Shown here piece by piece: positions 2,913 to 11,217 of a DNA stretch of 11,217 nt; positions within the stretch are counted from its first letter, which is position 1; every line of letters starts with the position of its first letter. Position numbers and translations under genes: made by a program. The stretch lies in the NCBI GenBank assembly GCA_005239845.1, contig SBBD01000057.1:1-11217 (forward strand), written 5' to 3'. The notes beneath the pieces were generated by a model. It did no database searches, had not been told where the DNA came from, and saw only the letters and a program-made list of their open reading frames with translations. The stretch is from an archaeon (lineage in GTDB: Archaea; Micrarchaeota; Micrarchaeia; Norongarragalinales; SBBD01).

Positions 2913-2935
2913 GGGCATTCTTCCCATTGCCTCTC

Positions 2936-3328
2936 ATGGCCAAACTGGAACGAACCAAGCTGGATGAGAAAGGCAGGCTGCTGGTTCCGCAAGCCTTCAG
3001 GGAGATGCTGCGCTTGAAGGAAGGCGAAGAAGTGCAGTTGCTCTTGGATGAGCAGAACGAGCGAATCATCGTGAGTCCCAGCCTCGAGAAGGGACGGCTG
3101 CTGGTAGAAATCGGCCTCTCGGACGACCCGGGCTCGCTTGCAAAGGCCGCCGACGTGCTTGCAGACTTTGGTGTGGACTTGATTTCCACGGAGTCCCGCT
3201 CCATGCTGAGAGGCAAACAGGCGGAATGGCACGTGCTCTGCAATGCCTCCTCCGTGAAAGACCTGCAGGCCCTCAAGAAAGCCTTGCAGGCCAAAGGCGT
3301 GTTGTGGGTCACTTTCCACAAGCTTTGA
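2936..3328 (+). CDS. AbrB/SpoVT-type DNA-binding domain fused to an ACT domain; putative amino-acid-responsive regulator
   Basis: This encodes a protein of 130 aa with two domains. Residues 4-50 are a swapped-hairpin AbrB/MazE-type DNA-binding domain (KLDEKGRLLVPQAFREML, then LKEGEEVQLLLDE and RIIVSP). Residues 54-128 look like an ACT ligand-binding domain: strand LLVEIGLSD, the DDPGSL loop with G66, helix AKAADVLADFGVDL, then strands around ISTESRS, EWHVLCNAS and VLWVTFHKL, with helix VKDLQALKKALQAKG. ACT domains commonly sense amino acids, so a small-molecule-controlled transcription regulator is the natural inference; ligand and targets are unknown. It is monocistronic with its own TATA box and lies 256 nt upstream of tRNA-His and about 370 nt upstream of the histidine operon, on the same strand. 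The long plus-strand frame that starts earlier lies inside amrB and is not used. Domain calls are good; the regulatory role is inference. Confidence 0.82.
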   Translation: MAKLERTKLDEKGRLLVPQAFREMLRLKEGEEVQLLLDEQNERIIVSPSLEKGRLLVEIGLSDDPGSLAKAADVLADFGVDLISTESRSMLRGKQAEWHVLCNASSVKDLQALKKALQAKGVLWVTFHKL

Positions 3329-3399: not shown

Positions 3400-3431
3400 G
3401 TGGGAAAAAAGTGGGAAAGATTTATTAATCT
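3400..3431 (+). promoter_or_regulatory. TATA box with upstream direct repeats and overlapping inverted repeat, before tRNA-His
   Basis: A strong archaeal TATA element (TTTATTAA, 3421-3428) lies in the gap before the tRNA. Two exact copies of GTGGGAAA start at 3400 and 3411, spaced 11 bp, about one helical turn. The second copy abuts the TATA box in the position of the purine-rich BRE. The TATA box also lies within an exact inverted repeat, AGATT-TATT-AATCT (3418-3431). The predicted start site is around 3450, so the transcript would run through about 135 nt before tRNA-His. The repeats could be regulator or TFB contacts. The promoter call is good; the operator reading is inference. Confidence 0.55.
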
Positions 3432-3584
3432 GCTAGTCCATAGCTTTTCCGGTTAAGTCGGAGTTGGGTGCCATGGGCGGTTTACTTCACTCGGGAATTG
3501 CGTGAACGTGCTACGGCTAGCCTCCGCCTTCGGGGTTTTCAAGAATTTTTCAGGAATTTCTTCCGCCTAGTTCTAACGCTGGAC
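3432..3584 (+). other. Non-coding stretch between the 3421 TATA box and tRNA-His; possible RNA leader or small RNA
   Basis: No convincing gene is visible. The predicted transcript start is near 3450. Small potential stems are TTCAC/GTGAA (3486-3490 with 3502-3506), GGCGG/CCGCC (3476-3480 with 3524-3528), the palindrome GGCTAGCC (3515-3522), and an A/T-rich imperfect hairpin just upstream of the tRNA (about 3541-3562). A 10-codon frame starts at 3473 but has only one His codon and nothing to support it. A GTG-started frame at 3468-3677 runs into the tRNA and is treated as chance. No box C/D, SRP RNA or RNase P signature was recognised. Confidence 0.3.
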
Positions 3585-3656
3585 GGCTGTGGTGGTGTAG
3601 CGGCTGCATTCAGGACTGTGGATCCTGCGGACCGGGTTCGAGCCCCGGCCACGGCC
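3585..3656 (+). tRNA. tRNA-His (anticodon GTG)
   Basis: The cloverleaf folds as follows. The acceptor stem is 3586-3592 with 3649-3655 (seven pairs, one G-U). The anticodon stem is 3611-3615 with 3623-3627, and loop CTGTGGA carries the anticodon GTG at 3618-3620. The T stem is 3632-3636 with 3644-3648, and the T loop is TTCGAGC. The extra G at position -1, the hallmark of tRNA-His, is encoded at 3585 and faces C73 at 3656. The 3' CCA is not encoded, as is common in archaea. The D arm is weak: GTGT at 3595-3598 can pair with GCAT at 3606-3609 only with G-U pairs at its ends, and the D loop is short. The variable region has 4 nt. The gene lies 39 nt upstream of the histidine operon, on the same strand. 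Confidence 0.93.
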
Positions 3657-3668
3657 CTTTCAGGGTGC

Positions 3669-3675
3669 AAAATAT
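3669..3675 (+). promoter_or_regulatory. Possible TATA box for the his operon
   Basis: AAAATAT is centred about 24 nt upstream of the GTG at 3696, close to the spacing for leaderless initiation. It is weaker than the box at 3421-3428. The operon could instead, or also, be transcribed by read-through from that upstream promoter past tRNA-His. No Shine-Dalgarno motif is apparent before the GTG, which favours a leaderless start. Confidence 0.35.
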
Positions 3676-3695
3676 GACGGGCGATTCACTTCATC

Positions 3696-5594
3696 GTGGC
3701 GCTGCCCAGCAAGGGCTCGTTGAGTCTTCCCACGCGCAAACTGTTCGCGGCCGCAGGGTTTGAAGGACTGGCGGAAAGCCGGTCCTACTCGTTGAATGGC
3801 AAAAGCCTCTCGTTCCTGCTCGTGCGCGCGAAGGACGTTCCCCTGTACCTCGAGCGGGAGCTTGCGGACATCGGCGTTACGGGGAAAGACGTGCTCGCGG
3901 AAACCGGCACTGGATTCGCGTCCCTACTCGATTTGCCTTATGGCTATTGCAGGCTCTCTTTGGCAGCACCGGTTGAGGCACGCGGGCGAAAGGAGGCGTA
4001 TTCAAGGATTGCCACGGCGTTTCCGAATCTTGCCAGGCAATATTGCAGAAGGAGGGGGCTGCAGTCTGAAATCATCGTGTTGGAAGGCGCGGTGGAGGCC
4101 AGCGTTTCCTCGGGAATAGCGGATGCCATTGTCGACTTGGTTTCGACGGGAAAGACCCTTCAGGCAAACAACTTGCAGGAAAAGGAAGTGCTGCTGCAGT
4201 CCAATGCGGTGCTGGTCGCCTCCCCGCTCGCGTTGAAGGAAAAGAAGGCGGAAGTGGAACGGCTGGTGGCGCAGTTGAAAGGCAATTGGCATATCTTGAG
4301 GTCTGAAATTGCAGGGCTTTCCCCTGAACAACGCAGAAAGCTCTTGAGGAGGGGGAGAGAGCAATCGGGGGAAGTGCTTTCGGTGGTTAGGGAAATCATT
4401 TCGAGAGTGGAACAGGAGCGAGATGCCGCCATCTCCTTCTATTCCCAAAAGTTCGGAGGAGTCTCCCTCAAGGCAAGGGAGTTCGAGGTGCCGGGGGAAG
4501 CAATCCGGGAAGCGTACGCCAAGACCCCGCCCGTATTGCTGGAAGCGCTCAAGCAGGCTGCATTCAACATCCGGCGGTTTGCCGAGAAAGAGTTGCGGGA
4601 AAGCTTTGAAATCAAGATGGACGGAGGGTTTGCCGGGAAACGCTTCGTGCCCTTGGACTGTGTGGGCGTCTATGCTCCCGGCGGCATGGCCTCGTATCCT
4701 TCCTCCGTGCTGATGGGCGTCATTCCGGCAAAAGTGGCAGGCGTAAGGAAAATCGTGGTCTGCACTCCGTGCAATTCGATAAAAGAGTGCAATCCGGCCG
4801 TGCTCGTGGCAGCGGATTTGGCGGGAGCGGATGAAGTGTACCGTTTGGGGGGAGCGCAAGCCATCGCGGCCTTGGCCCTAGGGACGGGAACGGTTCCAAG
4901 AGTGCGGAAAATCGTGGGGCCAGGTAACGTGTATGTTGCCGGCGCGAAGCTTGAAGTGCAGGCAAGGGGTTTTTGCGCCATCGACATGCCGGCAGGGCCT
5001 TCCGAAATCCTGGTGGTAGCGGACGAGACGGCAAACCCGGCATGGGTGGCCGCGGACTTGCTGGCGCAAGCGGAACACGATGCGGATGCCTGTCCCGTAC
5101 TGGTTACGACTTCCCAAAAAATTGCAGGTGACGTGGAGGCTGAGTTGCGTAAGCAAGCCATGTTGCTTTCCCGCCGGCAAATCGTGGAAAAGGCGTTGCA
5201 AAACAACGGGGCCATTCTCCTAGCGAAGGATTTGGTGGAAGCCCTGGAATTTGCGAACGCGTATGCTCCCGAGCACTTGGAGCTGCAGGTGGAACGCCCG
5301 GGGAGATGGCTGGACAAGGTGAGGAACGCTGGCGCGGTTTTTTTGGGTTCGTACGCGTGCGAGGCTGCCGGCGATTATTCGGCTGGGCCGAATCACGTGC
5401 TTCCCACGGGCGGCAGCGCGGGCTCGTATTCGGGGCTTTCGGTCTCCGCTTTCGGGAGGGAATTGAATTACCTCATGCTGCAGCGGAGCGGTTTGGAAAA
5501 GCTGCGTTCAAGCATTAAGGCGATTGCGGATGCGGAGGGCTTGGAGGCGCACGCGAATTCCGTGAAAAAGAGGTTTGAAGGGGAGGGAAAATGA
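3696..5594 (+). CDS. hisGD: Fused ATP phosphoribosyltransferase (short-form HisG) / histidinol dehydrogenase (HisD)
   Basis: This is one uninterrupted frame of 632 aa with the first and last enzymes of histidine synthesis. Residues 1-196 are HisG, which joins ATP and PRPP: the N-terminal ALPSKGSLSLPT motif, and the PRPP-binding region EGAVEA...GIADAIVDLVSTGKTL (130-155). It ends where short-form HisG ends, without the C-terminal regulatory ACT-like domain of long HisG. From about residue 205 a full-length HisD follows, which oxidises histidinol to histidine with NAD. Its zinc and catalytic residues are all in place: Q458 and H461 (AQAEHDADA), E526-H527 (YAPEHLEL), D560 (GDYSAGPNHVLPTGG) and H619 (EGLEAHANSV). 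Both halves therefore look active. Short HisG normally needs HisZ, which is absent from the window. The GTG at 3696 is the start because a stop at 3675-3677 closes the frame upstream with no better codon between. The stop overlaps hisC by 4 nt. Confidence 0.93.
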   Translation: MALPSKGSLSLPTRKLFAAAGFEGLAESRSYSLNGKSLSFLLVRAKDVPLYLERELADIGVTGKDVLAETGTGFASLLDLPYGYCRLSLAAPVEARGRKEAYSRIATAFPNLARQYCRRRGLQSEIIVLEGAVEASVSSGIADAIVDLVSTGKTLQANNLQEKEVLLQSNAVLVASPLALKEKKAEVERLVAQLKGNWHILRSEIAGLSPEQRRKLLRRGREQSGEVLSVVREIISRVEQERDAAISFYSQKFGGVSLKAREFEVPGEAIREAYAKTPPVLLEALKQAAFNIRRFAEKELRESFEIKMDGGFAGKRFVPLDCVGVYAPGGMASYPSSVLMGVIPAKVAGVRKIVVCTPCNSIKECNPAVLVAADLAGADEVYRLGGAQAIAALALGTGTVPRVRKIVGPGNVYVAGAKLEVQARGFCAIDMPAGPSEILVVADETANPAWVAADLLAQAEHDADACPVLVTTSQKIAGDVEAELRKQAMLLSRRQIVEKALQNNGAILLAKDLVEALEFANAYAPEHLELQVERPGRWLDKVRNAGAVFLGSYACEAAGDYSAGPNHVLPTGGSAGSYSGLSVSAFGRELNYLMLQRSGLEKLRSSIKAIADAEGLEAHANSVKKRFEGEGK

Positions 5595-6649
5595 AGAGCG
5601 TCGAACAGTTGGTGCGGAAGGATGTGCGGCAGCTGGAGCCTTACGTGTGCGCACGCGACTTGTGCAAGCAGGCGGAACAGTTCATGGACGCGAACGAGAA
5701 CGCGTTCGGAACCACGGTAGAGTTTGAAGATGTGCCACTAAACCGTTATCCGGATTCGGACTTGTTAGAATTAAAGCAAACCCTGGCGGAATACATCGGC
5801 GGGATTGCCGAGAACAACGTCTTGGTGGGAAACGGCTCGGATGAAATCATCGACTTGGCCATCCGCACGTTCGCTGAAAAAGGGGACAACGTCGTCTGCA
5901 TCGTGCCGGGCTATTCCATGTTCGAGGTGTGCGCACAAATATCGGGCGTTCACGTGCGCCGGGTGCTCGTGGAGAAGGACTTTCAGCCCAACGTGGAAAA
6001 AGTATTGGCCGCATGCGACGGACGCACCAAGCTCATCATGCTGGTGACGCCGAACTCGCCGTTGGGAAACATCGTTGAACCCGCTCGGATTCTGGATTTG
6101 TTGGAGAAGAGCGGGGCCATCGTGTTCGTGGACGAGGCGTACGGAGAGTTCGCGGGCTCTTCGTGGGCAAGGGAAACTGCAAATTACGGCAATTTGCTGG
6201 TAAGCAAGACCTTGTCGAAGGCATGGGGGCTAGCCGCGCTTCGTGTGGGGTACGCAGTCGCTTGTCCCTTCATTATTGAAAGCATGCGCAAAATCAAACC
6301 TCCCTACAACGTGAGCGCCATTTCCAACTATTTGGCGTTGAGGGCTCTGGGCAACAGGGACAGAATGGAATTGTATGTGCGGGAAATGAAGGAGGAGAAG
6401 GAAGTGTTGGAAGCGGAGTTGAAGAAGATGGGGTTTGAGGTGTTCGACACGGTGACGAATTTCAGTGTTTTCCGCGTTCCTGGGCAAGTGAGTTCGAAGG
6501 AAGTGCAGCGGAAGATTGCAGGCAAGGGCATCATTGTCCGGGACCGCTCGCCCTTGCCGTTCTTGGAGAACTGCATCCGGGTGACGGTCGGGACGCGGAA
6601 GGAAAACAGGCGTTTTTTGTCTGCGCTGGAACGGGCGATGACCCTATGA
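5591..6649 (+). CDS. hisC: Histidinol-phosphate aminotransferase
   Basis: This PLP enzyme of 352 aa (fold type I) transfers an amino group from glutamate to imidazole acetol phosphate, giving histidinol phosphate. Visible family marks are DANENAFG (33-40), RYPD (52-55), NGSDEIIDLAIRTF (81-94), the DEAYGEF segment with D181 and Y184, and the PLP lysine K210 in SKTLSKAWGLAALRVGYA with R218. The asparagine loop reads TPNSPLGN instead of the commoner NPNNPTG, but the key Asn remains. The length is normal. The ATG overlaps the hisGD stop in an ATGA, with a strong Shine-Dalgarno run (GGGGAGGG) just before it. The same ATGA overlap joins it to the phosphatase gene downstream, so translation is probably coupled. 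HisC paralogues can act on other amino acids, but the operon position makes the histidine role firm. Confidence 0.95.
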   Translation: MKSVEQLVRKDVRQLEPYVCARDLCKQAEQFMDANENAFGTTVEFEDVPLNRYPDSDLLELKQTLAEYIGGIAENNVLVGNGSDEIIDLAIRTFAEKGDNVVCIVPGYSMFEVCAQISGVHVRRVLVEKDFQPNVEKVLAACDGRTKLIMLVTPNSPLGNIVEPARILDLLEKSGAIVFVDEAYGEFAGSSWARETANYGNLLVSKTLSKAWGLAALRVGYAVACPFIIESMRKIKPPYNVSAISNYLALRALGNRDRMELYVREMKEEKEVLEAELKKMGFEVFDTVTNFSVFRVPGQVSSKEVQRKIAGKGIIVRDRSPLPFLENCIRVTVGTRKENRRFLSALERAMTL

Positions 6650-7395
6650 AAAAGCCTTTTCGGTACGCGCTGGTGTTGGACATGGACGGAACCCTTACGC
6701 CTGCGGACACGATTTTCCAGTTGTTCGAACGCTTGGGGAAGCGGCCCCGCGCAGAACAAGTCTACAAATGGAGCAAGACCCGACCGGACAGAATTGCCCG
6801 CGAATTCGGGGTTCCGGAATCGAGAGTGTTTCCGGGGATGGATGCCGAGCTTGTCCTGAAGGAAACGCTTCGGGAACGGGACTCCATAAGCGCCTCCTGC
6901 TTCGAACGTGTTGCGGGTGTAACGCTTTATCCGGGTGCCAGGAGGTTCGTCAGGCGCTTGGCATTGCACTATAGCGTGACGCCGTTCATCGCGACCGCAA
7001 GCTATTCTCCTGTTGCCCTTTCGATTGCGAGGCGACTGGGTATTGCGGAAGGGAACGTGGGAGCTACGCGGCTGCTGCTGGACGCTGACGGAAACGCTGT
7101 TTCCTTCGTGGGGCCGGTCATGGAAGGCGCGCAAAAGGAGGATTTTGTCCGCACGCTGGGGAAGAAACTCCGCATTCCGTTACGCAACTTTATCGGCGTG
7201 GGCGACAGCCCTTCCGACTTGCCGTTCCTTCTTGCCATAAAACGTTCCGGGGGGATGGTCCTGTCCGTCAAGAAGAAGCCGGAATTTTCGCGGGAGGGCA
7301 TACCTGTTTTCCGAAAAGACGGGCGGCCGGATTTTGCAGGCATGGAAAAGAGGATAGTGGGTTGGTTGAGGGCAAAGAAGGTGATGGAAAAATGA
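6646..7395 (+). CDS. HAD-superfamily phosphatase, probable histidinol-phosphatase
   Basis: This protein of 249 aa has all four HAD motifs: DMDGT with D12 and D14 (motif I), ATAS around T117 and S119 (motif II), K164 (motif III) and GVGDSPSD with D187 and D191 (motif IV). The segment between motifs I and II (about residues 17-95) is mostly helical in character, as in the cap of SerB-type (HAD-IB) phosphatases. By sequence alone it would be called a phosphoserine phosphatase-like protein. Its position between hisC and hisB, joined to both by ATGA overlaps, and the lack of any other histidinol-phosphatase here (no PHP or inositol-monophosphatase type) make histidinol phosphate dephosphorylation the best assignment. 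In E. coli the equivalent activity is the N-terminal half of HisB, also a HAD protein but of another subclass. The HAD call is firm; the substrate is inferred from context. Confidence 0.85.
   Translation: MKKPFRYALVLDMDGTLTPADTIFQLFERLGKRPRAEQVYKWSKTRPDRIAREFGVPESRVFPGMDAELVLKETLRERDSISASCFERVAGVTLYPGARRFVRRLALHYSVTPFIATASYSPVALSIARRLGIAEGNVGATRLLLDADGNAVSFVGPVMEGAQKEDFVRTLGKKLRIPLRNFIGVGDSPSDLPFLLAIKRSGGMVLSVKKKPEFSREGIPVFRKDGRPDFAGMEKRIVGWLRAKKVMEK
7379..7385 (+). promoter_or_regulatory. Shine-Dalgarno motif for hisB
   Basis: AGGTGAT matches the complement of the archaeal 16S rRNA 3' end over seven bases and ends 6 nt before the ATG at 7392. It supports that start over the in-frame upstream codon at 7362. 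It also shows that internal genes of this operon use ribosome binding sites, unlike the first genes of transcription units in this window. Confidence 0.7.
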
Positions 7396-7982
7396 AACGC
7401 ATTGCCGAGATTGAGCGTAAGACAAACGAGACGCAGGTCAGGCTGAAACTGAACGTGGACGGCACTGGAAACTACCGTATCAGCACGGGAATCGGTTTCT
7501 TCAACCACGTCCTGGAATTGTTTGCCAAGCACGGCCTCTTCGATTTGGAGGTTGAGGCGAAAGGAGACTTGGATGTTGAGGAACACCACTTGGTGGAAGA
7601 TGCCGGAATCGTGTTGGGGCAGGCGTTCCGGCAAGCCTTGGGGGACAAGAAGGGCATCCGGCGCTACGGGTTCTTCGTCCTGCCCATGGACGAGGCGTTG
7701 GCGCTCGCCGCCGTCGACTTCAGCGGACGCCCGGAATTCGTGTGGAACGCAGAGTTCAAGCGGGAGAAGATCGGGACGCTTCCCACGGAGCTGTTGCCGC
7801 ACTTCTTCAAGTCCATCGCGGACAACGCCATGATGAACCTGCAGTTGAAGCTCTTCTATGGAATGAACGAGCACCACAAGGCGGAAGCGCTGTTCAAAGC
7901 ACTAGCGAGAGCCATGCGCATGGCCTGCGAATACGATGCACGGTCGCGGGGTGTTGTGCCGAGCACGAAGGGAGTGATTTGA
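7392..7982 (+). CDS. hisB: Imidazoleglycerol-phosphate dehydratase
   Basis: This is a monofunctional HisB of 196 aa, which dehydrates imidazole glycerol phosphate to imidazole acetol phosphate at a di-manganese site. The metal-binding repeats are visible: FFNHVLELFAKHG (N38, H39, H47), VEEHHLVEDAG (H65, H66, E69, D70) and the C-terminal half NEHHKAEALFKALARAM (H161, H162, E165). The R-GFFVLPMDEALA segment is also typical. It has the standard length of single-domain HisB, without the phosphatase fusion of enterobacteria. The ATG at 7392 is supported by the AGGTGAT motif 6 nt upstream, the ATGA overlap with the phosphatase stop and the family N-terminus (RIAEIERKTNET). A 33-nt gap, the only sizeable one in the operon, separates it from hisH. 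Confidence 0.96.
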   Translation: MKRIAEIERKTNETQVRLKLNVDGTGNYRISTGIGFFNHVLELFAKHGLFDLEVEAKGDLDVEEHHLVEDAGIVLGQAFRQALGDKKGIRRYGFFVLPMDEALALAAVDFSGRPEFVWNAEFKREKIGTLPTELLPHFFKSIADNAMMNLQLKLFYGMNEHHKAEALFKALARAMRMACEYDARSRGVVPSTKGVI

Positions 7983-8015: not shown

Positions 8016-8642
8016 ATGATTGGGGTTTTGGATTACGGGCAAGGCAACCTCTACAACGCCAGGAACGGATTGCGGCGCGCGGGAGCGAAACGCGTAAAGG
8101 TAGTGGAAACCCGTTCCGAAATCGATAAGTGTAGCGCATTGGTAATCCCGGGAGTTGGCTCGTTTTCAGAGGCCATGAAAAAACTGGAACCCTTGCGCTC
8201 TTGCCTGCGGGAGTTTGTCGGGGAAGGCAAGCCCCTGCTCGGAATTTGCCTGGGGATGCAGGTGCTGTTTGAGGAGGGTGAGGAAGGAGGAAAAACGGTG
8301 GGGTTGGGACTGCTTGCCGGAAGCGTGCGAAAGCTCAGGGGAGCGTCAAAGCTGCCTCACATCGGATGGAATTCCGTCCTTTCGAACAAGCGTGCGGGAG
8401 TACCGGAAAGCCTGTTATGGAAGGGCTTGCCGGAGAACCCGTTTTTCTACTTCGTGCACTCGTACGCAGGCGTTCCTGTAGAGGAAAGCGTGATTATCGG
8501 GAGGACGGAGTATGGTAAAAAGTTTGTTTCAGCCGTGCAGCGCAGGAACGTGTTCGGCGTGCAGTTTCACCCGGAAAAGAGCGGGAAGAATGGCGAGAAA
8601 GTGCTCGCTAATTTCGTGGAGTTGACTGAAAAATGGAAGTAG
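8016..8642 (+). CDS. hisH: Imidazole glycerol phosphate synthase, glutamine amidotransferase subunit
   Basis: HisH (208 aa) hydrolyses glutamine and passes ammonia to HisF for closure of the imidazole ring. It is a class I glutamine amidotransferase: the nucleophile C78 sits in GICLGMQ, and the triad is completed by H185 and E187 in VQFHPEKS. Other family marks are LDYGQGNL (5-12), IPGVGSF (44-50), PHIGWN (114-119) and the FVHSYAG segment. The length is normal. The start at 8016 is preceded by a GAGGCGGG run that can serve as a ribosome binding site. The last 10 nt overlap the start of hisA in another frame. hisF lies two genes downstream, so both subunits come from the same transcript. Confidence 0.96.
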   Translation: MIGVLDYGQGNLYNARNGLRRAGAKRVKVVETRSEIDKCSALVIPGVGSFSEAMKKLEPLRSCLREFVGEGKPLLGICLGMQVLFEEGEEGGKTVGLGLLAGSVRKLRGASKLPHIGWNSVLSNKRAGVPESLLWKGLPENPFFYFVHSYAGVPVEESVIIGRTEYGKKFVSAVQRRNVFGVQFHPEKSGKNGEKVLANFVELTEKWK

Positions 8643-9349
8643 TCCCTGCCATCGATTTGCTGGATGGAAAAGTGGTGCGGCTAAAGCAAGGGAAGCGCTC
8701 CTCTAGCGTAGCCTATGCCAGTGATGCGGGTCAAGTTGCGATGGAGTACGTGAAACAGGGGGCGAATCGGATTCATGTCGTGGACTTGAATGCGGCTTTA
8801 GGAATGGGAGACAACTTGGATTTAGTTTGCCGGCTTGCCACCAGCTGTCCCATTCCCTTGCAAGTGGGGGGAGGAATCCGCAGCGTGGAGACAGGAGTAG
8901 GATTGCTCCAGCGGGGCGCGGATCGCCTCGTCATCGGTACAGCGGCGTTGGATTCCAACACGTTGAAGCGCTTTGTGGATTATTTTGGGCGGAACGTGTG
9001 GGCCGCCGTGGACGTCAAGAACGGGATAGTTGCCGCGAACGGCTGGACCCGGGATTCCGGGCTTGGTTTCCGAAGCGTTTTGTCCAAGTTAGGGCAAGCT
9101 GGAGTCGGAGGCGTTGTGGTAACCGACGTCTCGGGAGACGGAATGCTTTGCGGGGTTTCTGAAGCGTTTTTCAAGAAGATTCGGGCAAGCACCCCCTTGT
9201 CGTTGTATGCGGCTGGAGGAATTGCAAGTTTGGAGGACATTCGTTTGCTTTCCGAGCTTTGTTATGACGGAGTGATTGTGGGAAAGGCGTTGTATGAGAA
9301 GCGGTTCACGTTGAAGCAAGCGTTTACGGTGGGGGAAAATGTTGGCTAA
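8633..9349 (+). CDS. hisA: ProFAR isomerase (5-ProFAR to PRFAR)
   Basis: HisA (238 aa) is a (beta/alpha)8-barrel that performs the Amadori isomerisation of ProFAR to PRFAR, the substrate of HisF. Residues matching the known T. maritima HisA active site fall at the same numbers: D8 ([15 protein letters not shown]), D127 (AAVDVKNG) and T164 ([10 protein letters not shown]). Phosphate-binding glycine segments are seen at QVGGGIRS (77-84) and AAGGIAS, the expected two half-barrel sites. The TDVSGDG motif has Gly where Arg is more usual (TDxSRDG), a minor oddity. It overlaps hisH by 10 nt and hisF by 11 nt. A GGAG at 8618-8621 is a weak ribosome binding site, so coupled translation is likely. TrpF-like dual use (PriA) cannot be excluded, but nothing points to it. 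Confidence 0.95.
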
Positions 9350-10097
9350 ACGCATTATTGCTTGTCTGGATGTCAAAGGCGGGCGGGTAGTGAAAGGGGT
9401 GCGTTTCAGGGACTTGAGGGACGCAGGCGACCCCGTAGTGCTGGCGGAGCGGTACTGCAAGGAAGGAGTGGATGAAATCGTTTTTTTGGACATTTCCGCT
9501 AGTGCTGGGAAGCGGAGGACGCGGCGGGATTGGGTGAAACGGGCGGCGCGAAGGTTGGATGTGCCTTTTACGGTGGGGGGCGGCGTTTCAAGTCTCGACG
9601 ACATTCGAGCATTGTTGAGGGCAGGTGCGGACAAGGTTTCTGTGAATTCTGCAGCCGTGCTTAATCCGAGGCTAATCGCGGAAGCTTCCCGCACCTTTGG
9701 TTCGCAGTGCATCGTATCGGCTATTGACGCAAAAAGAACGGGTGCTGATTGGGAGGTATATGTTTATGGAGGAACAACGCCCACTGGAAAGAATGCCGTG
9801 GAATGGGCGGTCGAGTGCGAACGTTTTGGGGCTGGGGAAATCCTGTTGACGAGCATGGACGCGGACGGGACAAAAAACGGTTTTGATGTCGGCTTGACGA
9901 GGGCGGTTAGTGAAGTGGCAAACATTCCAGTAATTGCCTCTGGAGGCGCTGGAAGAATGCAGGATTTCGTGCAGGTTTTCAAGCAAGGAAAGGCGGATGC
10001 GGTGCTTGCGGCCAGCCTCTTCCACTACGGGAAGCTGAGCGTTCCGTCCCTGAAAGAGTATTTGAAACTCCAGGGAATTTTGGTGAGAATGGAATGA
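9339..10097 (+). CDS. hisF: Imidazole glycerol phosphate synthase, cyclase subunit
   Basis: HisF (252 aa) is the (beta/alpha)8-barrel partner of HisH. It uses ammonia from HisH to turn PRFAR into imidazole glycerol phosphate and AICAR. The catalytic aspartates are D11 ([15 protein letters not shown]) and D130 (VSAIDAKR), exactly the numbers known for T. maritima HisF. Phosphate sites are visible at TVGGGVSS (78-85) and IASGGAG, and the [12 protein letters not shown] loop is typical. The length is full. The ATG is preceded by a GGTGGGGG run ending 3 nt upstream. The gene overlaps hisA by 11 nt and hisIE by 4 nt (ATGA). Confidence 0.97.
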
Positions 10098-10684
10098 AGC
10101 TAAACTTCGACGAAAATGGTTTGGTTCCTTTAATCGTGCAGGACGCGGAATCCAAACAAGTGCTTTCCTTGTTTTATGCCAGCCCTGCCTCGTTACAAAA
10201 AATGAAAAAGACTGGATTCGTGTGGAGGTACAGCCGGAGCCAGCAAAAAATAATGAAGAAAGGGGCAACTTCCGGAAACGTGCAACGGATCGCAGCCATA
10301 TTGCCGGACTGCGATTCGGATACCTTGTTGGTTCTTGTGAAACAATCCGGAAAAGGAGCATGCCACACGGGAGCTTGGAGTTGTTTCGGGGAGGAGAAGG
10401 CAAGAAACTGGGGCGTTTTGGACGAGTTGGGGAATGTGCTTGCAGAAAGGAAACGAAAACCACGAACTGGTTCGTATACCTCTGAGCTTTTTGCCCAACC
10501 GACAAAAATAGGGGAAAAACTGAAGGGGGAAGCCGCCGAGTTAGAGGAAGCCATGCTGGGGAAGCCGGATTCTGAAGTAGTATGGGAGGCTGCAGATTTG
10601 CTCTTTTTCACGCTGGTGGCCTTGCAGCAAAGGGGGATTGATGTTGAACGCGTGCTGCAAGAATTGAAGCGCCGCCGGAAATAG
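10094..10684 (+). CDS. hisIE: Bifunctional phosphoribosyl-AMP cyclohydrolase / phosphoribosyl-ATP pyrophosphatase
   Basis: This fused enzyme of 196 aa performs steps two and three of the pathway. Residues 1-105 are the HisI cyclohydrolase: FVWRYSRS (42-49), [10 protein letters not shown] (55-64), the metal-binding DCDSD (72-76, with C73) and the zinc cysteines C90 and C97 in [11 protein letters not shown]54 stands where a Trp is common. Residues about 108-196 are the HisE pyrophosphatase, an all-helical MazG-like domain with [12 protein letters not shown] (E146, E149) and [12 protein letters not shown] (E165, D168). The fusion order is that of bacterial HisIE. GGTGA at 10082-10086 ends 7 nt before the ATG, which overlaps the hisF stop. 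It is the last gene of the operon and faces the release factor gene across 57 nt. Confidence 0.96.
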
Positions 10685-10741: not shown

Positions 10742-11217
10742 CTACTTATACCTCAAGAACGCCCCCAGACCATGGAACGTGGCGAAGAACTGCTTGCCCT
10801 CGTGCGTCTCCTGTGAAATCAGCTCCACTCCTATCCCCTTCTCGGCCCCCTTATCCTGAATCTCTTCCACGAGGTTTTTTTGGTCCACGATTGTTCCCTG
10901 CCCACCGCATTTTGCGCAGCGCAATTCTGCTATCCTCCCTTCCAGCTTGCCCTCCATGACCTTCGCTTCGATGTTCCCGCAAGAGGAACACTTGATTTTC
11001 ACTTCATGCAGCAAAAAGTCTTCCGAAATGAGGACGGTGCGGGCCTTTCCGCTTTCCACGGCCTCCCTCACTTGCTGCAAGCCATACGTGGCCAGACCAT
11101 CCGTACTGATTTCTTTCATGAACTCGTCCAAAAGCTTCTTCTCCTCCACGGCCTCCTGTTCCTGCAGCAAGCCCTCCGACTTTTCAAGCAGTTCGCGCAG
11201 TCCCACTTCTTCCGTGT
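10742..11217 (-). CDS. prf1: Peptide chain release factor aRF1, C-terminal part (runs off right edge)
   Basis: These are the last 157 codons of the archaeal class I translation termination factor, homologous to eRF1. The frame stays open to the window edge, so the start lies outside. Visible marks of the C-terminal domain are GLRELLEKSEGLL, the STDGLATYGLQQVREAVESG segment, VLISED, a zinc-finger-like pair of CxxC motifs (CSSCG and CAKCG), then GVELISQETHEGKQF and the terminal GLGAFLRYK, all typical of aRF1. An in-frame GTG at 11204-11206 could be mistaken for a start, but the conserved sequence continues upstream of it (TEEVGLREL). The catalytic GGQ motif belongs to the middle domain outside the window; the GGQ string within CAKCGGQG is coincidental. 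The gene converges on the his operon. Confidence 0.93.
   Translation of the reverse strand, partial: TEEVGLRELLEKSEGLLQEQEAVEEKKLLDEFMKEISTDGLATYGLQQVREAVESGKARTVLISEDFLLHEVKIKCSSCGNIEAKVMEGKLEGRIAELRCAKCGGQGTIVDQKNLVEEIQDKGAEKGIGVELISQETHEGKQFFATFHGLGAFLRYK

Follow-up and report, generated by a model that had tools for sequence, protein, structure and literature searches.

Among described systems, the autoregulatory +1 frameshifting of bacterial RF2, compared here with what we take to be the exact letters of prfB, comes close to the arrangement reported below: both have a short open reading frame (ORF) in the 0 frame, a CUU shift codon, a slow codon in the A site, and a product encoded in the +1 frame. 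The two differ in that UGA is replaced here by a sense codon for His or Trp (CAT in our sequence, CAC or CAT elsewhere), that the signal would be the supply of an amino acid and not of a release factor, and that the arrangement occurs in archaea, in front of several genes and sometimes with two sites in series. In the attenuation of enteric his and trp operons, a short leader peptide with codons for the regulated amino acid lies ahead of the operon. Our locus likewise has a leader peptide ORF with a codon for the regulated amino acid, but mostly one such codon, placed in +1 phase to what follows, so that control would act on translation; a bacterial consensus scan found no terminator-like site between the leaders and hisG.

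The choice of CUU agrees with RF2, of which it is the conserved shift codon according to excerpts of a review (PMC5009743). The same excerpts describe frameshifting at hungry codons in E. coli, which resembles our case in that the ribosome slips when the tRNA for the A site is scarce, but which was studied under imposed starvation (PMC5009743); of trans-frame proteins with a starvation-specific function, they state that "no examples are known" (PMC5009743). For archaea, one reported −1 case is given in the portion seen of a review of archaeal recoding (PMC8211752). Fusions of histidine enzymes are a further parallel (HIS4, HisNB, HisIE, and HIS7), although HisG is not a partner in them and, in Archaea, no his fusion other than hisIE was known in 2007, as far as excerpts of a survey of that year go (PMC1963479). 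This agrees with the sequence-only reading, a model's reading of the letters alone, in which a HisG-HisD fusion was held not to be standard; nor did the titles listed, mostly outside subscription journals, include a paper on such a fusion in Micrarchaeota or on such a leader. With the short-form HisG/HisZ system our locus shares the catalytic part of HisG, but HisZ was not found and HisG is fused to HisD.

The window, that is, the whole stretch of 11,217 nucleotides that was analyzed, comes from a draft genome of 1.19 Mb in 195 contigs (G000, about 70% complete). It holds, in this order, genes for an AbrB-ACT protein, tRNA-His, HisG-HisD (hisGD), hisC, a HAD phosphatase, hisB, hisH, hisA, hisF, and hisIE:

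2933 to 3328, plus strand: protein with AbrB-type DNA-binding and ACT domains, likely regulator of the his genes (TIGR01439, 28.9 bits; cut-off 28.3)
3401 to 3416, plus strand: TGGGAAAAAAGTGGGA direct repeat, putative operator (1 match against 0.03 expected)
3586 to 3657, plus strand: tRNA-His (GTG) (ARAGORN; Rfam RF00005, 48.4 bits)
3693 to 4283, plus strand: HisG domain of the short form, at +1 relative to leader 2, which is listed further below (family matches and structure comparison)
4347 to 5594, plus strand: HisD domain, fused to HisG (PF00815 match at 4347 to 5576; family, alignment, and structure comparison)
5591 to 6649, plus strand: HisC (TIGR01141, 330 bits)
6646 to 7395, plus strand: HAD-IB phosphatase, probably histidinol-phosphatase, a function inferred from its position (TIGR01488, 48 bits; cut-off 45)
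7362 to 7982, plus strand: HisB (PF00475, 221 bits); an internal ATG may be the true start
8016 to 8642, plus strand: HisH, so named by its place in the operon (PF00117, 94.7 bits)
8633 to 9349, plus strand: HisA, taken as HisA rather than HisF by its place in the operon (PF00977, 209 bits)
9339 to 10097, plus strand: candidate HisF, an ORF that we take to be HisF from its place in the operon
10094 to 10684, plus strand: HisIE fusion (PF01502, 81.5 bits; PF01503, 74.5 bits)

Outside this series, a radical-SAM gene of the AmmeMemoRadiSam type (TIGR04337, 367 bits) adjoins a Memo gene (PF01875, 171 bits) at 985 to 2891, and the C-terminal part of archaeal aRF1 (TIGR03676, 128 bits; cut-off 234.7) lies on the minus strand at 10742 to 11206, at the contig end.

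ORF analysis confirmed that positions 3696 to 5594 form a single open frame of 632 codons without an inner stop. The HisG part of its product matches TIGR00070 (169 bits, residues 1 to 175) and PF01634 (160 bits), and the HisD part matches TIGR00069 (498 bits, residues 231 to 626) and PF00815 (525 bits); the first and last enzymes of the histidine pathway are thus joined in one chain, a real and unusual fusion, as had been read from the sequence. HisG was also correctly recognized as the short form, with the catalytic domain present (TIGR00070, 169 bits) and no match to PF08029 (HisG_C) in G000. In the alignment of fused sequences it keeps D147...G152-x-T154-L155, which presumably has a role in PRPP binding. 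HisD is intact, as had been claimed, with Q458, H461, E526, H527, D560, and H619 invariant across 16 aligned fused sequences. An AlphaFold model of the fusion (pLDDT 80.6, poor at residues 553 to 595) resembles known structures of HisD (e.g., 1k75) and of HisG (e.g., 5ub9 and 6r02), with a TM score of 0.86, normalized by target, and 36% identity between 6r02_F (Psychrobacter) and the HisG part.

Proteins with both domains are not confined to the window. Among the best 120 of 7995 candidates, 16 relatives (P0002 to P0017) share 51 to 65% identity with it, and the four with an organism name are all Candidatus Micrarchaeota; a scan of genome contigs gave three Micrarchaeota among the 80 loci listed. 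A fusion common to 16 relatives rules out an assembly error that joined two genes, and because the junction is open in relatives on other contigs, a sequencing error at 4280 to 4330 is very unlikely. A quick tree of HisD places the Micrarchaeota fusions, 20 rows of which 17 are distinct because three loci occur twice, in one clade (SH-aLRT 99), whereas in a shorter HisG tree the Micrarchaeota fusions need two changes. At least six further HisG+HisD proteins, Clostridia-like and 42 to 55% identical (P0018 to P0021, P0023, and P0025), stand among the same best 120 of 7995. The first four, two of them named Scatomonas and Oliverpabstia, were taken into the trees (P0023 and P0025 were left out) and group among unfused HisD rows; apparently, these Clostridia-like fusions are separate events, by read-through or deletion.

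Within the window's order, HisG is present in 9 of 29 genomes. It is fused to HisD in G000, G111, G240, and G059, and hisG and hisD are separate but adjacent in G195, G255, G075, and G073, while in G163 a short hisG directly precedes hisH and a HisD match is absent. Read on the sequence, the hisG stop of the unfused pairs seems to overlap the hisD start, a state that would be one indel away from fusion. Probably, the fusion arose from such an overlapping pair, and with it the first and the last enzyme are made in a 1:1 ratio. An apparent TGA inside HisD of G255 and G075 proved to be the normal stop, past which the alignment had run. As separate observations, the hisG frame of G073 (L034) looks disrupted in its first third, and hisD, hisC, hisB, and the phosphatase gene were not found in the his operon of G163 (L033).

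The GTG at 3696 may not be the true start of HisG-HisD. A different frame begins at the ATG at 3674, and relative to it HisG is at +1. Two short leader ORFs of this kind, each with CTT before a His codon, stand in the window:

3473 to 3505, plus strand: leader 1, encoding MGGLLHSGIA and a stop, with CTT at 3485 to 3487 and the His codon CAC at 3488 to 3490
3489 to 3677, plus strand: +1 frame of leader 1, which runs open for 62 codons across tRNA-His and is closed by TGA at 3675 to 3677
3674 to 3763, plus strand: leader 2, encoding MTGDSLHRGAAQQGLVESSHAQTVRGRRV (starting MTGDSLHR), with ATG at 3674 and the 0-frame stop at 3761 to 3763
3689 to 3694, plus strand: proposed +1 shift site CTT-CAT, with CTT (Leu, P site) at 3689 to 3691 and CAT (His, A site) at 3692 to 3694

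Leader 2 has the Shine-Dalgarno (SD) sequence AGGGUGCA (−6.3 kcal/mol), and HisG-HisD is in its +1 frame. The TGA that closes the +1 frame of leader 1 overlaps the ATG of leader 2. Leaders like leader 1 also stand upstream of tRNA-His in G111 and G059, and the extension of the +1 opening past tRNA-His is not significant by itself in any of the three (shuffle P of 0.17 in the window, 0.09 in G111, and 0.20 in G059). G111 has the same pair of leaders, with the +1 stop of leader 1 five bases before the second ATG. The arrangement thus comes in two modes, either direct entry of the next gene in the +1 frame (the fused type) or coupling, in which the +1 frame ends at the next start codon. The window has both, and G059, which lacks the fused type, has a leader 1 whose +1 stop overlaps the hisG ATG.

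On this sequence evidence, we consider it likely that HisG-HisD synthesis is gated by translation, through a +1 frameshift at a hungry His codon by which the level of charged tRNA is sensed. With ample His-tRNA, ribosomes would decode CAC or CAT and end at the stop codon of the leader itself. With little His-tRNA, the ribosome would pause with CUU in the P site and a waiting A site, tRNA-Leu would slip from CUU to UUC, and reading would continue in the +1 frame. On leader 1, the shifted ribosome would run to the ATGA at 3674 and restart on leader 2, and on leader 2 it would make HisG-HisD. We infer the pausing, the slippage, the dependence on tRNA charging, and the reinitiation at ATGA from the positions, phases, and recurrence of the leaders and from the match of their codons to the pathway, all of which are apparent in the sequences.

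Recurrence is seen at all nine hisG-first loci of the order, eight with CTT-CAY and one (G073) with GTT-CAC. Placed side by side, most of these hisG starts have no in-frame start codon, and an ATG (GTG in G195) opens another frame; the common part of the leader peptides ends in L-H (V-H in G073), with hisG at +1. The same element precedes hisD where hisD is the first gene. Unrelated genes thus share it: hisG of G111 and hisD of G151 are identical over 20 bases. Throughout the phylum, 23 of the 36 first-his-gene loci, i.e., those whose first his gene sequence was retrieved, have a leader, 22 of them with CTT-CAY. The fused type accounts for 18 loci (17 with CTT-CAY, plus G073 with GTT-CAC), and in five more (G059 and, before hisD, G085, G114, G033, and G282) the +1 frame stops at the start codon; a second leader of this coupling mode stands at G253. 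The remaining 13 first genes have no leader by these criteria, including G187, which is cut before the hisD start; at the first gene of G184, CCT-CAT in +1 phase can be seen by eye.

Fused-type CTT-CAY in the +1 relation is found in 17/36 first his genes and in 1/163 other his genes, a control that excludes fused HisD (4/167 before its removal), for a Fisher P value of 8e-14 in which related loci count as independent. The CTT-CAY pattern was named after the first loci had been seen; the control guards against the resulting bias, as does a tally with no pair named beforehand, in which CTT-CAC is again the commonest codon pair in first genes. For the coupling mode, 8/163 other his genes also scored, but none had both CTT and a 0 frame of at most 30 codons; most had TTT, GTT, or ATT before CAY, and several were stops of the preceding gene. 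In the two control cases with CTT-CAT, the 0 frame spans 629 codons (hisC of G184) and 108 codons (hisC of G034), so they are not short leaders.

The starts of the leaders also stand out, with a best SD of −6.3 kcal/mol or lower in 14/18 fused-type loci versus about 10% of 718 control ATGs, and the 16S 3' end GATCACCTCC is present in G126, G136, G195, and G151 (four of the eight loci displayed). A possible counterpart of the stimulatory internal SD at fixed spacing in RF2 is AGG nine bases before the shift codon, seen by eye in 11/18 loci; the window has GGC there. In G111, where 1.04 of about 1.2 Mb was scanned with an SD of −6 and 100 open codons required, CTT sites in +1 phase were not commoner than in +2 (15 versus 20), CAY occurred only at hisG, and no other convincing operon with a leader was found. 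The fixed pattern ARGGRTNNNCTTCAY had 33 matches over the order versus 18 with the reversed pattern, and of the 30 loci retrieved, two qualified as leaders, each of them at hisG. When ATG and AGG were set two codons apart, the pattern had six matches, of which those in G292 and G272 look like leaders.

The alternative that fares best is an ordinary start, in which translation of HisG-HisD would begin at GTG 3696, or at some other codon than ATG, and the ATG out of frame would be accidental. The GTG is in frame and has a usable SD (−6.1, spacing 9), several other fused-type loci likewise offer in-frame starts, and the records P0005 and P0010 to P0012 begin at MAIP, all of which count against frameshifting. 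However, 6/18 fused-type loci (G163, G195, G255, G075, G073, and G263) have no in-frame ATG, GTG, or TTG between the last stop and the tenth codon after the site, G195 has 15 codons from the site to HisG IAIP without a start codon, and similar leaders stand before hisD, hisS, and one trpE. We therefore regard an ordinary start as unlikely.

The hisS leaders, which came out only under looser criteria than ARGGRTNNNCTTCAY, were found in 11 of 24 hisS loci of the order (G140, G157, G240, G097, G070, G122, G037, G183, G247, G059, and G111) and were absent from the other 13 and from hisS of the window's own genome; these loci come from 26 genomes with PF13393, with the fragment in G108 left out. 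Their peptides carry LLH or SLH (e.g., L059:1240-1480, L268, L271, L057, L061, L274, L277, and L279), and ARAGORN places a tRNA-His between leader and hisS in 8/11. In 8/11 the +1 frame is open for 50 to 129 codons and ends no more than 11 bases from where hisS starts, while the 0 frame closes after 2 to 9 codons and the +2 frame after 6 to 36 (shuffle P of 0 to 0.11 each; G070 and G247 belong to the same genus); in the other three, the +1 frame closes early. A profile search found no HisG or HisD match in 8 of the 11 genomes with a hisS leader. Separately, a tRNA-His-like sequence with an apparent insert stands before hisS in L041 (G000, C66), seen by eye and not called by ARAGORN.

A single case concerns tryptophan. 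In G155 (L265:6030-7457, minus strand), ATG GAA CAG GGA AGG GAT TTA CTT TGG lies ahead of trpE (PF04715, 97 bits; PF00425, 319 bits), with trpE in the +1 frame, where scarcity of Trp-tRNA would take the place of that of His-tRNA. Downstream are trpG (PF00117) and trpD (PF00591), and then two ORFs that are candidates for trpC and trpB; trpE also has an in-frame GTG. A Trp pattern, incomplete because of an arbitrary extra GC, had 34 matches, and of 30 loci tested, one passed. On the minus strand of G292 (L267), two tandem cassettes, CTT CAT and CTC CAT, lead into an AbrB-like frame (by eye), followed by a frame that matches HisG weakly (E 7e-4) and is truncated at the end of the contig. A leader encoding MTGRGLLHGGRK in G272 (L266:3-332, minus strand) has a 110-codon +1 frame that reaches the contig end without a Pfam match.

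These leaders could also act by attenuation without frameshifting, with a stall at the His codon altering RNA folding or termination, as might be suggested by short peptide ORFs whose codon matches the pathway and by some leaders whose last codon is the His codon or lies shortly beyond it (e.g., VKGGLLH). This we consider quite improbable, given that there is mostly a single His codon at the site and no run, that repeatedly the next gene is in +1 phase or the +1 frame is open as far as its start codon, and that a scan with a bacterial consensus found no terminator-like site between the leaders and hisG in the window. For the frameshift reading in its broadest form, our confidence is evenly balanced: Micrarchaeota might possess a portable codon-programmed starvation sensor, AGG-GRT-nnn-CTT-[end-product codon], in which scarcity of charged tRNA would cause a +1 slip. 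Such a sensor would control histidine synthesis, HisRS, and at least one trp operon and could be stacked in series, as in the window, and slipped ribosomes would read through the tRNA-His gene, so that tRNA maturation and enzyme synthesis would compete for one RNA.

How HisG activity itself is controlled is a related question, for which the sequence-only reading had raised the idea that HisD stands in for HisZ as scaffold or regulatory partner; a HisD part replacing HisZ would serve short HisG as scaffold and histidine sensor. HisG is indeed short, HisZ was not found, and both parts form one chain. However, short HisG without HisZ is unfused in G195, G255, G075, and G073, and G163 has a short HisG without any HisD match, so that the idea is not supported and appears very improbable to us. 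In the nine HisG genomes of the order, profile searches found no HisG_C (the genomes with unfused HisG are 71 to 90% complete), although it scores above the cut-off in 30 genomes outside the order, and found one PF13393 match above the cut-off each, taken as HisRS rather than HisZ; in the window's genome (70% complete), the sole match is a hisS cut by the contig end. Since unfused short HisG of the same order also lacks HisZ and an ACT-like domain, the loss of regulatory parts is not tied to the fusion, and short HisG without HisZ is a trait of the order. Short HisG alone is active and insensitive to histidine, as described in excerpts of PMC9734150. Because HisG here has neither HisZ nor an ACT-like domain, control may rest on synthesis, through the leader and the AbrB-ACT protein, and not on feedback inhibition.

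The ACT match of the AbrB-ACT protein (PF01842) reaches 25.2 bits, below the cut-off of 27. In 9/9 hisG loci of the order, the queried gene closest to hisG on its upstream side encodes a relative, with tRNA-His in between in the fused loci G000, G111, and G059 and not in G240. The protein also precedes hisD in L150 to L157 and in G293, including genomes with a long HisG, and was not seen in the stretches examined of L040, L042, and L159 to L163. In 17/36 loci, 9/9 in the order, the repeat TGGGA-N6-TGGGA lies ahead of the first his gene by no more than 700 bases, with five occurrences in the remaining 341,565 bases. That the protein is no transcription factor but the missing regulatory subunit of short HisG, which its ACT-like domain and its place upstream of hisG in all nine loci would allow, is hardly credible, as it also precedes hisD-first operons of relatives whose long HisG has HisG_C and the repeat element sits upstream of the first his gene.

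If the proposed frameshifting is true, frameshifting at hungry codons would have a regulatory role in nature, as an archaeal amino acid sensor that needs neither repressor nor riboswitch, with a sensor codon that seems exchangeable between His and Trp. The starts of hisG, hisD, and trpE in these genomes may then be misannotated. HisG-HisD itself extends the known set of his fusions and exemplifies a short HisG without HisZ or an ACT-like domain.
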